Below, one piece after another: positions 46,819-52,752 of a DNA stretch of 54,738 nt (position 1 is its first letter; every line of letters starts with the position of its first letter). Both the position numbers and the translations under genes were made by a program. Location of the stretch: the NCBI GenBank assembly GCA_963205385.1, contig CAUJKE010000380.1, forward strand, positions 1-54,738. Direction: 5' to 3'. Source of the DNA: Planctomycetota bacterium (lineage in GTDB: Bacteria > Planctomycetota > Planctomycetia > Pirellulales > Pirellulaceae). The notes under the pieces are model-generated. The model searched no databases, was not told the DNA's origin, and saw nothing but the letters and a program-made list of their open reading frames with translations.

Positions 46819-47460
46819 GTTGCGCTAGTGTTCTCTATGCCCGCTGTCCCGAGCCAAGTTCGCCGCTGGGCCAGCAACGAGCCGGGGATGAATGCTGGAA
46901 AATGATTCTCAAGCGTGCATCATAAACGACCAGCGGGATAGTCCCAAGCTTGATTCGGGGTGGGGGCGTAAACCGTAAACCGTAGCCGCACCCTCCTTTC
47001 CATCGGAAACCCTCCCTCACGCAGCGTTTCCCGGGCTTTCACAGCAACTACGCTGACTGGAAGGGTGTTGATGCCGAGGACATTATGCTTGCCAGCAACA
47101 GCGCGAATTTGCTCGGAAAGCGTCCCTTATCGCTGCGTAACGTTTTGCTGCTCGGCGTCTTAGAAACCAGCTATCCATGCCTGTCAAGCGTGTAATCGAG
47201 ACGGTTCGGGTGCCATCGGCCAGCCTCTTCCGCCATGCGACCTTTGAGTCGTGCTCGTCGAACATGCACGCGAGTGCTTGGTGCATGCCGTTGGAAGTTC
47301 CATTTGGATCTTGCGTGACCTTTCTCCTTGTTCCTTGCAAGTGGACGAAAGTTGGTGCTTGGAGTTCGACGTTCTTGTTTCTCAATCGAAATCATTGTTA
47401 CACTTGATCGTGAAATTTCCGCGCTCAAGCGACCTTTTTAACATCTGAAAGTTGAATACG
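46819..47460. other. 642-base spacer before the deaminase gene; possible regulatory RNA
   Basis: No convincing protein gene was found; the open frames here (for example minus 47083-47385) lack family matches and good start signals. Seen: a 7-base near-tandem repeat CGTAAAC at 46967-46980; a perfect 7-bp hairpin CATGCAC/GTGCATG with 11-base loop (47263-47287); a weak promoter-like TTGTTT-18-TACACT (47375-47404). In Vibrio the AvcI inhibitory RNA is encoded just upstream of avcD, so a non-coding RNA here is plausible but unproven. Confidence 0.4.
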
Positions 47461-49089
47461 ATGAATTCGACGGAAAGCGATTATCTTTCGAGCCATGAAC
47501 TTGATTCTGAGTTGATCATTGGATTGGTGTGCGCGGTAGGTACAGAGAGCATTTTGATTGTCGATTTGATCAAGGAGAGGCTGGGGCGAGCGGGATATAT
47601 TGCAAAAGCTGTAAAAGTTTCGAGCGATGTTATCCCGCAACTCGTTACCGTTTCAGACTGCGGAAACGATAAGTACAAGCGATACTCTGAGTTAATGGAT
47701 GCAGGAAATCGTTGTCGCGCGAGAAAGGACAGGAACGGTAATGCAGACGACGCTATCCTGGCCCTCGGCGCAGCGACTATAATTTCAACGACTCGGAGAC
47801 AATTGAATCAACGTTCTGAACCGCAATCACAATTAGCATCAGATGAGAGCACAAGGCAGGCGCCTAATCCACTACCAAAGACCGCCTTTATTATCGACTC
47901 CCTGAAACGCCCAGAGGAAGTCGAAAAATTGAGAATAATTTATCCGTCAGGTTTTATACTGATCGGAATTCACGAAGAAGAGGCTCGACGGCGGAAACAT
48001 CTAATTGAAGACCACGGCATGACGGAAAAGCAAGCAAAATTGCTGCTGGAGCGTGACAGTGAAGAGAGCACTATCGAGCACGGGCAGCGTGTCAACGCCA
48101 CGTTTCATCTGGCAGACTTTTTTGTGCATTTGACAAATAATCGCGATAGACTGCGATTCGAGGTTCAGCGAATCGTCGAGCTCTGGTTTGGGAACCCCTT
48201 CATTACGCCAACACCTGACGAACATGCTATGTTCTTCGCATTCGCCGCAGCACTTCGGTCAGCGGATCTTTCCCGCCAAGTAGGAGCCGTAATAACCAAA
48301 AATGCCCAAGTCCTATCTGTGGGAGCCAACGAGTGCCCGAGAGCAGGGGGTGGCTTGTATTGGCCAAGCGAAGAACTATCGTGTCTCAGCGATTCAGCTT
48401 CCGGCATTGGATGCGCGCTTGATTCTGAAAATGGTCGAGACTACAAGCGAGAGGAAGGTGATTCGAATCGAGCAGAGCAATTGCGAATAATCGATCGCAT
48501 CATTGACGAAGCCAAAGCGGATAATCCAAATTTTGATGCGGAACTTCTTAGAAAAGTACTTAAGAAAAGCGGCATTCGCGATTTGACAGAGTTTGGACGA
48601 GTTGTTCATGCAGAGATGGAGGCATTACTTTGTTGTGCGCGGAATGGAATTCCGACTGTGAATGCAACACTATACTGCACTACGTTTCCGTGTCATAACT
48701 GCGCCAAGCATATCGTTGCAGCAGGAATTAGTCGCGTAGTGTACGTCGAACCCTACCCTAAGAGTAAAGCGCTGACGCATCACAATGACTCAATAATTAC
48801 TTCTGGCGACCTGAAACCGGAGTGCCCCGAATCGGTCACTTTTGAGCCTTTCGTTGGTGTTGGCCCTCGGCGTTTTTTCGAACTGTTCTCGATGAATTTG
48901 GGCTCTAGCTATCCGCTTGTACGAAAGGACAAGGAGACCGGCAAGAGACGAGATTGGCACATTGAGTCCGCACAACTTCGACTCCAAATGAAACCAGTTT
49001 CGTACCTCGATCTTGAGCTTTATGCGTGCAAAGATTTTGGTGACAAACTAAATCTAGTCAAAGGCGATCACTCTGATCGTACGTCGTGA
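47461..49089 (+). CDS. avcD: Anti-phage dCTP deaminase, AvcD/DcdV type
   Basis: A two-domain defence nuclease-free protein of 542 aa. The N-terminal P-loop-like domain begins ELIIGLVCAVGTES (17-30) but lacks a visible GK[ST] lysine. A variable part (about 105-140) follows, then the joint region with FGNPFITPTPDEHAMFFAFA and ALRSADLSRQVGAVI, typical of the family. The cytidine deaminase site is complete: His383-Ala-Glu385 and Pro410-Cys411-x-x-Cys414. Such enzymes deplete dCTP/dCMP during phage infection. GC is visibly lower than neighbours (sampled lines 48 and 40 percent against about 65 percent in carB), pointing to transfer. ATG 47461 preferred over TTG 47452; ribosome binding site weak. 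Confidence 0.9.
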   Translation: MNSTESDYLSSHELDSELIIGLVCAVGTESILIVDLIKERLGRAGYIAKAVKVSSDVIPQLVTVSDCGNDKYKRYSELMDAGNRCRARKDRNGNADDAILALGAATIISTTRRQLNQRSEPQSQLASDESTRQAPNPLPKTAFIIDSLKRPEEVEKLRIIYPSGFILIGIHEEEARRRKHLIEDHGMTEKQAKLLLERDSEESTIEHGQRVNATFHLADFFVHLTNNRDRLRFEVQRIVELWFGNPFITPTPDEHAMFFAFAAALRSADLSRQVGAVITKNAQVLSVGANECPRAGGGLYWPSEELSCLSDSASGIGCALDSENGRDYKREEGDSNRAEQLRIIDRIIDEAKADNPNFDAELLRKVLKKSGIRDLTEFGRVVHAEMEALLCCARNGIPTVNATLYCTTFPCHNCAKHIVAAGISRVVYVEPYPKSKALTHHNDSIITSGDLKPECPESVTFEPFVGVGPRRFFELFSMNLGSSYPLVRKDKETGKRRDWHIESAQLRLQMKPVSYLDLELYACKDFGDKLNLVKGDHSDRTS

Positions 49090-49093
49090 CGCA

Positions 49094-49288
49094 TTATCTG
49101 GCGGTATGGAGATCACTGGAAGGTTCGTGGCGTTGTTGCATGTCCGTCGACTTCGGATCAACCGGGGTACGCGCGGTTGAGTTAGTTGGTTGGCAACTGT
49201 GGTTCAAAATGTTTTGTTTCCATCGAGGCCACTGGCCCACGATAGATGAGGCATTCTGAATCTGCTGCTCAATATCATTTTTTGTCAT
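49094..49288 (-). CDS. Small conserved-looking planctomycete protein
   Basis: A 64-aa protein from ATG 49288 with GGAG seven bases upstream (TAGGAGCGATTGT). Sequence pattern IVGQWPRWKQNILNHS, then Pro/Thr-rich NSTARTPVD. I recall very similar short proteins (IVxxWPxWKxNxL...) scattered in planctomycete genomes; no function is known to me. It is antisense to nothing and lies on the opposite strand, four bases beyond the deaminase stop. A perfect palindrome lies 44 bases upstream of its start. Confidence 0.65.
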   Translation of the reverse strand: MTKNDIEQQIQNASSIVGQWPRWKQNILNHSCQPTNSTARTPVDPKSTDMQQRHEPSSDLHTAR

Positions 49289-49331: not shown

Positions 49332-49387
49332 TAGGAAGGCGATAGGCTTAAATACGTGCCCACGTATTTAAGCCTATCGCCTTCCTA
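49332..49387. repeat. Perfect 27-bp inverted repeat
   Basis: Arms 49332-49358 and 49361-49387 are perfectly complementary, with only CC between them. The arm reads TAGGAAGGCGATAGGCTTAA and continues AATACGTG. There is no A- or T-tract at either side, so it is not a normal terminator. It lies between carB (stop 49504) and the small minus-strand gene, near the end of the low-GC segment. Confidence 0.95.
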
Positions 49388-49503: not shown

Positions 49504-52500
49504 TCAGTTCACCGGAAACCGGTCCTGTAGCGCTTCTACGTCCATGTCTTCTTCGCGCAGGGCTTCCATCGCTTTGACTGCGGCTTCGCAGGCTTGCAGG
49601 GTGGTGATGCAGGGGACGCCGTGTTGGACGGCGGCGGCGCGGATGCGGCCTTCGTCGGTGCGGGCCCCTTTGCCGCTGGGCGTGTTGATCACCAGCTTCA
49701 CGTGGCCGTCGATCATGTAGTCCAAAAGGTTCGGATGCCCCTCGGCGAGCTTCTTCACCCGCTCCACCGTGACGCCATGTTCTTCAAACGCGCGGGCGGT
49801 TCCCTCGGTGCATAACAGTTCGAAGCCCATCGCGACCAGTCGCTGCGCGAGCGGCACGGCGGCGTCTTTGTGCCGCGCGCTGAGGCTAATGAAAATCTTG
49901 CCGCTGGTCGGCAGCACCACGCCGGCGGCCAATTGCCCCTTGGCGAAGGCGATGGAAAACCGCTCGCTGATCCCCATGACTTCGCCGGTCGAGCGCATCT
50001 CCGGGCCGAGGACGATATCGACGCCGACGAACTTGCGGAACGGGAAGACGCTTTCTTTCACGGAGACGCAGCGCGGGATCGGCTCGCGGTCGATGCCAAG
50101 CCCCGCCAGCGTCGCGCCGGCCATGACTTTCGCCGCGATCTTCGCAACCGGCATTCCCGTGGCTTTGGCCACGAAGGGAACGGTGCGGCTCGCGCGAGGA
50201 TTGACCTCGAGCACATACACAATCGCCTGGCCGTCCTCGCGCTTCACGGCGAACTGCACATTCATGAGGCCAATGACGTTGAGATATTTTGCCATCGCCG
50301 CCGTCGCTTCACGAATCTCCTGCACGACCGGCCCCGGCAAACTGTACGGCGGAATGGCGCAGGCACTGTCGCCGCTATGCACGCCGGCCTCTTCGATATG
50401 CTCCATGATCCCGGCGATAACCACCTGCTCGCCGTCGCTGATGCAATCGACATCGACCTCGGTCGCGTCTTCCAGGAAGCGGTCGATCAGCACTGGCTGC
50501 CCCTGCGCGACCACGAACGCTTCGGCCACGTAGCGTTCGAACTGGGCCAGGTCGTAGCAAATCTCCATCGCCCGCCCGCCAAGCACAAAGCTGGGACGCA
50601 CGAGCACCGGATAGCCAATCCGCTCGATCTCCGCCCGAGCTTGAGCCAATGTCCGCGCGATGCCACTAGCGGGCTGATTGAGGTTCAGGTGTTCGACGAG
50701 TTGCGCGAACTTCTCGCGATCCTCCGCTTGTTCAATCGTATCGACGCTGGTCCCAATGATCGGCACGCCGGCATTCCAAAGCGCGCGGGCGAGGTTCAGC
50801 GGTGTTTGCCCGCCGAATTGCACGATCACGCCGTCGGGATTCACGCGGTCGACGATATTCAGCACGTCTTCCACCGTGAGCGGTTCGAAGAACAGCAGGT
50901 CACTGGTGTCGTAATCGGTGCTGACCGTCTCGGGATTGCTGTTGACCATAATCGACTCGATCCCCAGCTCGCGCAGGGCGAAGCTGGCGTGGCAGCAGCA
51001 GTAGTCGAACTCGATTCCCTGACCGATGCGGTTGGGCCCGCCGCCGAGAATCATGATCCGCTTCTTGTCTCCCTTGGCGGGAACTTCGTCCTCGTCTTCG
51101 TAGGTCGAATAATAGTACGGCGTGTACGCTTCAAACTCCGCCGCGCACGTATCCACCGACTTGAACGTGGCGATCACGCCTAGCCGCTTGCGGGCGTCGC
51201 GAACTTCCAGATCGGTCACGTTCCAGAGCGTCGCGAGTTGCTTATCGCTGAAGCCGTACTGCTTCGCCTGTTTCATCGTGGCCGCGTCGACGTTCGCGAG
51301 CGAGCCGAGATGCGCGAGCAAGGCCTCGAGTTCGACGATCTGCAATAGTTGATCGAGAAACCAAGGGTCGATGTGGGTTAAATCGAAGATTTCCTGTTGC
51401 GAAAGGCCTGCTTTCAAGGCGTAACGCAAGTACCAGACGCGGTCAGCGTTGGGCGTGGCGAGTTTGGCCCGGATTTCGTCGTACGTCGGCTGCGCTTCCG
51501 TTCCCCACAGATCCTTGCTATCGCAGCCAAAGCCAAAGCTGCCGACTTCCAACCCGCGGAGGGCTTTCTGAAACGACTCCTTGAACGTACGGCCAATCGC
51601 CATCGTCTCACCGACGCTCTTCATTTGCGTCGTGAGCGTGGCGTCCGCTTCGGGGAATTTCTCGAATGCGAACCGCGGGATTTTCGTCACCACGTAATCA
51701 ATCGTCGGCTCGAAGCAGGCCATCGTCTCGCGGGTGATATCGTTGGGCAGTTCGTGCAGGCGATAGCCGACCGCGAGCTTGGCGGCGATTTTGGCGATGG
51801 GGAAGCCGGTCGCCTTGGATGCGAGCGCCGAGCTGCGGCTGACGCGGGGGTTCATTTCGATGACGATCATGCGGCCGTTCGTGGGATCGACGGCGAACTG
51901 GATGTTCGAGCCGCCGGTCTCGACGCCGATCTCGCGAATTATCGCCAGACTCGCGTCGCGCATCCGCTGGTATTCTTTATCGCTCAGTGTTTGGGCCGGG
52001 GCGACGGTGATGCTATCGCCAGTGTGGACCCCCATCGGATCGAAGTTCTCAATCGCGCAGATGATGACGACGTTGTCGTCCATATCGCGCATCACTTCCA
52101 TCTCGTACTCTTTCCAGCCGATGATGGATTCTTCAATCAACACTTCATGAATCGGCGACTGCTCGAGGCCGTTGCGCACGAGTTGGTCGAAATCCTCGCG
52201 GTTATAAGCGATGGCCGAACCGCTCCCGCCGAGCGTGAAGCTGGGACGCACGACCGCGGGGAGGCCGACTTCGGCGAGCACTTTCTTCGCTTCCTCCACC
52301 GTATGCACGATGCGGCCATTGCAGACGGAGAGGCCGATTTTCTCCATCGCCGCCTTGAACTTCTCGCGGTCCTCCCCTTTGTCGATAACGTCGGGCCGCG
52401 CGCCGATCATCTCGACGCCATACTTCGCCAGCACACCTTGGCGATGCAGGTCCATCGCCAGGTTCAGCCCGGTCTGGCCACCGAGGGTGGGGAGGATTGC

Positions 52501-52752
52501 GTCGGGGCGCTCGCGCTCGATGATTTTCTCGATAATTTCCCAGGTCAGTGGCTCGATGTACGTGCGGTCGGCCGTGCTGGGGTCGGTCATGATCGTGGCC
52601 GGGTTGCTGTTGACCAGCACCACTTCATAACCCTCCTCGCGGAGCGCCTTGCATGCCTGCGTGCCGGAATAATCAAATTCGCACGCTTGCCCAATGACAA
52701 TGGGCCCGGAGCCAATGAGGAGGATTTTCTTGATGTCGGTACGCTTGGGCAT
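49504..52752 (-). CDS. carB: Carbamoyl-phosphate synthase large subunit
   Basis: Makes carbamoyl phosphate from ammonia (glutamine via CarA), bicarbonate and two ATP, for arginine and pyrimidine synthesis. It is 1082 aa. Two ATP-grasp halves begin [20 protein letters not shown] and, at about 565, [20 protein letters not shown]. The C-terminal MGS-like allosteric domain (about 940-1070) is intact. carA is not adjacent. ATG 52752; no ribosome binding site of note. Confidence 0.98.

Follow-up and report, generated by a model that had tools for sequence, protein, structure and literature searches.

A planctomycete dCTP deaminase of the anti-phage family and a conserved small neighbouring gene that may regulate it

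Two kinds of described systems are among those closest to the locus considered here. The anti-phage dCTP deaminases (NF041025; PADLOC dCTPase) were reportedly described by Tal et al. in 2022; AvcID, which combines the AvcD deaminase with the AvcI RNA in a type III toxin-antitoxin system, was reportedly described by Hsueh et al. in 2022 and 2023. Characterized relatives convert dCTP and dCMP to dUTP and dUMP and thereby deplete deoxycytidine nucleotides after phage infection; the AvcI RNA, encoded beside the enzyme, holds it off until host transcription fails (PMC10511110, PMC12409362). Such off/on control of dCTP-depleting enzymes is known for few AvcID systems, in which it operates via RNA.

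The window, which is the whole stretch of 54,738 nucleotides of planctomycete DNA analysed here, carries a deaminase of this kind together with a small gene, named W in this work. We regard it as rather probable that the two form a horizontally acquired anti-phage module in which W is a dedicated regulator, most likely an inhibitor of the protein antitoxin type.

The deaminase gene and its genomic setting

The deaminase is encoded by a real open reading frame at 47461..49089 on the plus strand, located as predicted. Its 542 residues comprise an adenylate-kinase-like P-loop domain (residues ~15-245) and a zinc deaminase domain (~250-470). The original prediction had placed it among the anti-phage dCTP deaminases, and HMM searches agree: the protein scores 441.2 bits against NCBIfam NF041025, an equivalog model for anti-phage dCTP deaminase with a curated cutoff of 400, in a match spanning nearly the entire model, and 528 bits against PADLOC dCTPase. 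PF00383 also matches within the reading frame. Housekeeping models all score far under their own cutoffs, as does the ComEB model (60.5 against a cutoff of 219). By these profile assignments, the product is a genuine member of the anti-phage dCTP deaminase family. The additional label AvcD-type is sound for the enzyme family, a placement made via the NF041025 and PADLOC models and not by direct comparison with V. cholerae AvcD; in its strict sense, which implies an AvcI RNA antitoxin, the label is unsupported.

The predicted two-domain architecture is borne out by an AlphaFold model (pLDDT 90.3, pTM 0.90), one part of which has PDB fold matches to the dCMP deaminases of S. mutans (2hvw), T4 (1vq2), and human (2w4l), and the other to the adenylate-kinase-related structures 3h0k and 3lw7. 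The zinc site is likewise complete: the motifs H383-A-E385 and P410-C411-x-x-C414 are intact, and none of the zinc and catalytic ligands (H383, the catalytic E385, C411, and C414) varies among 49 aligned homologues. The P-loop region, GLVCAVGTES, does lack GK[ST], as had been observed, but this is the family norm rather than an oddity. Aligned homologues mostly read G[LI]V.A[VI]GT[DE] at this position, in more distant members from plasmids the sequence is G[LF]CGA[IV]GSG.K and not GK[ST], and the canonical motif is absent in every homologue examined. Judged from these alignments, the missing lysine is a family trait and nothing special to this gene. Residue 252 (48214-48216), just before the deaminase domain, is Pro in this protein and Phe in ~98% of homologues (PTFDE to PTPDE).

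The gene is also GC-poor, as had been claimed, with 48.1% GC compared with 60.1% for the rest of the window. In most loci compared for GC, the deaminase is GC-poorer than its own flanks; low GC is thus common in the family, which supports mobility, yet it is not peculiar to the planctomycete genome. A near full-length or contig-cut homologue was found in 5 of 60 relatives searched, none of which belongs to the same genus, and in none of the homologue loci examined does carB adjoin the deaminase.

Intact carB (1082 aa; 49504..52752, minus strand) is a neighbour of the module and its probable insertion site, lying outside it. On the other side of the deaminase, the 640 bases formerly described as non-coding prove to contain a degenerate second copy of the 3' end of carB (46971..47371, minus strand; residues ~970-1081), which is frameshifted and has a stop. 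A tblastn search with the CarB of the window itself recovered this remnant as two colinear minus-strand pieces, 47371-47117 (residues 970-1037) and 47108-46971 (1037-1081), with a joint E-value of 7e-10 in the whole window; scores of the core pieces are 39 and 31 bits, and 500 shuffles gave at most 23 bits. At the DNA level, the remnant is 63% identical to carB over 289 columns, and it is nearer to the carB of this genome than to that of any relative compared.

A cassette of ~2.5 kb is therefore flanked by two carB sequences in the same orientation, the intact gene and the decayed copy of its tail. This arrangement suggests insertion at the carB end, and insertion at the 3' end of the gene with duplication would be the simplest reading. 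Foreign replacement of the carB 3' end was considered and rejected, because the intact C-terminus shows no anomaly and lies at the expected distance from relatives; for the duplicate, no description beyond that of a decayed carB tail is therefore offered. That the deaminase retains its invariant residues although the duplicate has decayed points to selection for maintenance of the enzyme. Patchy presence, foreign GC, the lack of a homologue near carB elsewhere, and the flanking duplicate together make horizontal acquisition of the module plausible. The idea of an acquired small cassette is accordingly retained as to acquisition but not as to a single gene, since a second gene is present. In the same genome bin, a contig of 9.3 kb (L100; G000:C391) holds broken, divergent carB pieces and encodes a protein that, by eye, ends in a type IX secretion sorting-signal-like sequence; it is perhaps a Bacteroidota contaminant or a chimera.

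The upstream sequence also bears on whether the locus is a classical AvcID type III system, in which an AvcI-like RNA would control the deaminase and W would be incidental or have a side role. This is improbable. Although the enzyme family is the same and AvcI, being an unannotated RNA, would be invisible as a reading frame, the upstream sequence here is similar to that of no homologue, and an Rfam search returned nothing relevant, although an unrelated RNA might escape both comparisons. Upstream conservation in other members proved to be protein-coding. Moreover, only ~90 bp separate the carB remnant from the start codon, whereas a functional AvcI requires a minimum of ~171 nt (PMC10511110).

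The perfect palindrome reported after the deaminase is present at 49332-49387, between W and carB, with 27-nt arms (49332-49358/49361-49387), a 2-nt gap, no T tract, and a hairpin z of -12.6. It is not a repeated mobile element, as it occurs in a single copy in the genome, and the Rfam microRNA names attached to it are chance hairpin matches under gathering scores. The palindrome may be a bidirectional terminator, an operator, or a scar.

The small partner gene W

W (49288..49094, minus strand) lies between the deaminase and the palindrome and encodes 64 aa with the motif VxxWPxWKQxxL; its translation is MTKNDIEQQIQNASSIVGQWPRWKQNILNHSCQPTNSTARTPVDPKSTDMQQRHEPSSDLHTAR. The two genes are convergent, tail to tail, with 4 bp between their stop codons, and a ribosome-binding-site-like AGGAG is found upstream of the W ATG. 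Contrary to the earlier claim, the deaminase thus does not stand alone but has W on one side and the carB remnant on the other.

When the flanks of 80 homologous loci were compared, a conserved signal emerged immediately after the deaminase across many phyla; the copy in the window lies on the opposite strand. A conserved downstream RNA was discarded as the source of this signal: the first DNA-level signal was RNA-like but was shown to be protein-coding. Over 44 residues, W shares 66% identity with the reading frame behind the Neorhodopirellula deaminase (L005). Differences between the two genes are distributed 12/9/31 over the codon positions (pN 0.25 vs pS 0.90), which is similar to the deaminase in the same comparison (pN 0.24 vs pS 0.86), and the substitution pattern indicates that W is under codon-level purifying selection. 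A blind profile, built without the window's W and its four nearest kin, matched 1 of 1177 window reading frames, namely W (E=1e-12; next best E=1). W is a real gene that is linked to the deaminase and inverted here. The inverted order rests on one assembly of 417 contigs, in which the tail-to-tail junction falls inside a continuous contig, ~240 bp from the palindrome. No inverted repeat explaining the inversion was found.

W matches no Pfam, NCBIfam, or PADLOC family, and phrog_38465 of PHROGs (function unknown) matches some of its homologues. The structural model of W consists of two helices joined at the WPxWK turn and a low-confidence tail; a search for related structures yielded no fold match. 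The likeness of PxWKQxxL to the villin headpiece was not significant in the PDB (E 0.13-0.43, with supervillin at 0.13 in a profile search) or against Pfam VHP (E=0.17, one homologue), and likeness to the headpiece core is perhaps convergent. In the literature searched, a scope that excludes the key AvcID and Tal et al. papers, there is no mention of a small partner gene of a dCTP deaminase.

W homologues lie directly behind the deaminase in ~65 loci of Planctomycetota, Proteobacteria, and Firmicutes. In a profile survey, W was found in 60 loci and was downstream on the deaminase strand in 59, the window being the sole inverted case; the profile was built partly from those same loci, and many are close kin (Photorhabdus, Pseudomonas), so that the counts are not independent. 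Free of such circularity are the blind profile, co-occurrence in the 60 relatives, the E. coli locus, and genomes whose W was outside the alignment. Strong W matches (E<1e-12) occur in exactly 4 of the 60 relatives, which are those with a full-length, uncut deaminase gene, and genome searches placed W beside the deaminase in 6 further genomes of the planctomycete phylum. In E. coli (NZ_CP106924; L154, 2341-4036), the deaminase and W lie 1 bp apart on a P4-like satellite adjacent to tRNA-Sec, W being the 57-aa RefSeq hypothetical protein WP_000021256.1. An ATGA overlap at the end of the deaminase gene, typical of translational coupling, occurs in 20 of 60 loci. Because W is inverted in the window, co-translation with the deaminase does not apply here.

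Cross-phylum linkage, codon selection, blind detection, and co-occurrence make it very improbable that the enzyme is an ordinary lone dCTP deaminase at a single-gene locus, with W an unrelated small reading frame, even though one clade has no W gene and defence databases model the system by one enzyme (PADLOC; PMC9090908).

Copies without this deaminase argue against a strict two-gene module. An orphan W (L150, 1411-1602; G222:C83) has no deaminase in the surrounding 12 kb (L153), and the same genome has another W beside a deaminase (L146). The neighbours of the orphan are, by eye only, DUF262-like and HEPN-like. Elsewhere (L139, 1048-1581; G031:C76), a protein of 177 aa from a phage-like region begins with a W-like WPxWK domain, and phage-side use of the domain is possible; a search for this protein in viruses found nothing. 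The same cluster holds genes resembling those for a DNA methylase and MazG, together with a dCMP deaminase.

Deaminase phylogeny and the possible role of W

In a tree of 82 deaminases, the window's enzyme forms a group with those of L003 and L005 (support 99); the surrounding clade is mostly planctomycete and has W wherever downstream sequence is covered. One clade (20 rows, support 100) is without W, and W is therefore not essential to every such enzyme; outside this clade, W is nearly universal. Eighteen of the 20 W-less members carry an extra N-terminal domain, FTGTxEELK...GGxxNWYxSTGTIxFQGK, in the deaminase reading frame. This domain, carried by part of the family (L155, 1621-3390; L009, L024, L039, L073, and others), has no Pfam or NCBIfam match. 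It also accounts for upstream conservation in other members that was at first taken for an RNA or a separate small gene. The match of the window's deaminase to the PADLOC profile (630 positions) begins at position 148, and a comparison with the domain gave no match, which indicates that the enzyme lacks it. In a distant plasmid clade (E. coli, Photobacterium, Klebsiella), short annotated reading frames lie upstream of the deaminase at the expected avcI position (L130, 2188-2373; L131, 2148-2318; L132, 1195-1377), each ending in basic residues and a C-terminal Trp (KKITW*, KIRW*, KSLKW*).

This distribution could also be read as that of a positive partner. W would then be a phage sensor, activator, or oligomerization subunit without which the deaminase is inactive, and the extra domain of the W-less clade could be a substitute sensor. 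The linkage data fit this as well. Nevertheless, simple substitution is not universal, as 15 loci carry both W and the N-terminal domain, and characterized relatives are under an inhibitor, the AvcI RNA (PMC10511110, PMC12409362). We consider a positive role less likely than an inhibitory one, but it is the main alternative.

A W-deaminase module is supported by codon selection, blind detection, cross-phylum adjacency, co-occurrence, ATGA stops, and the clade pattern. In the favoured reading of W as an inhibitor, the deaminase would remove dCTP and dCMP during infection, as characterized family members do, and phage DNA synthesis would be starved. W would hold the enzyme off until infection as a protein antitoxin, possibly substituting for the AvcI RNA, and the inverted W of the window, running toward the deaminase, would need expression signals of its own. 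We infer both the regulatory or antitoxin role and the insertion route. More tentatively, and with somewhat less than even confidence, it can be proposed that a large, multi-phylum deaminase clade is controlled by an unrecognized WPxWK protein antitoxin that replaces the AvcI RNA, with the inverted W of the planctomycete locus showing that the pair can persist without translational coupling. If true, this would amount to a second control principle, based on a conserved small protein that occurs in most of a sister clade and that Pfam, NCBIfam, and PADLOC do not cover. Current defence annotation counts a single gene for the system, and a deaminase cloned alone may give toxic or inactive constructs. 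The co-directional W copy on the E. coli P4-like satellite makes the partner idea directly testable in E. coli.

Comparison with described systems

Like the anti-phage dCTP deaminases, the enzyme described here combines kinase-like and deaminase domains with a zinc site. However, models of that family consist of one gene, whereas a conserved small partner gene is present in the window, and this enzyme lacks the N-terminal domain, as judged from its match to the PADLOC dCTPase profile. The AvcID enzyme is homologous, and by analogy the chemistry, depletion of deoxycytidine nucleotides, is probably the same. In contrast to AvcID with its AvcI RNA, the planctomycete locus yielded no AvcI-like RNA and has a linked protein gene downstream, in inverted orientation. 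The dCMP deaminases (T4 1vq2, S. mutans 2hvw) and ComEB share the zinc deaminase fold, to which the enzyme of the window adds a kinase-like domain. A parallel in gene content is the E. coli pair, which also consists of a deaminase, 44% identical to the planctomycete enzyme, and W; there, W is co-directional rather than inverted. Placement of W downstream on the deaminase strand is the norm of the WPxWK family, seen in the 59 other loci, and it is from this norm that the W of the planctomycete locus departs.
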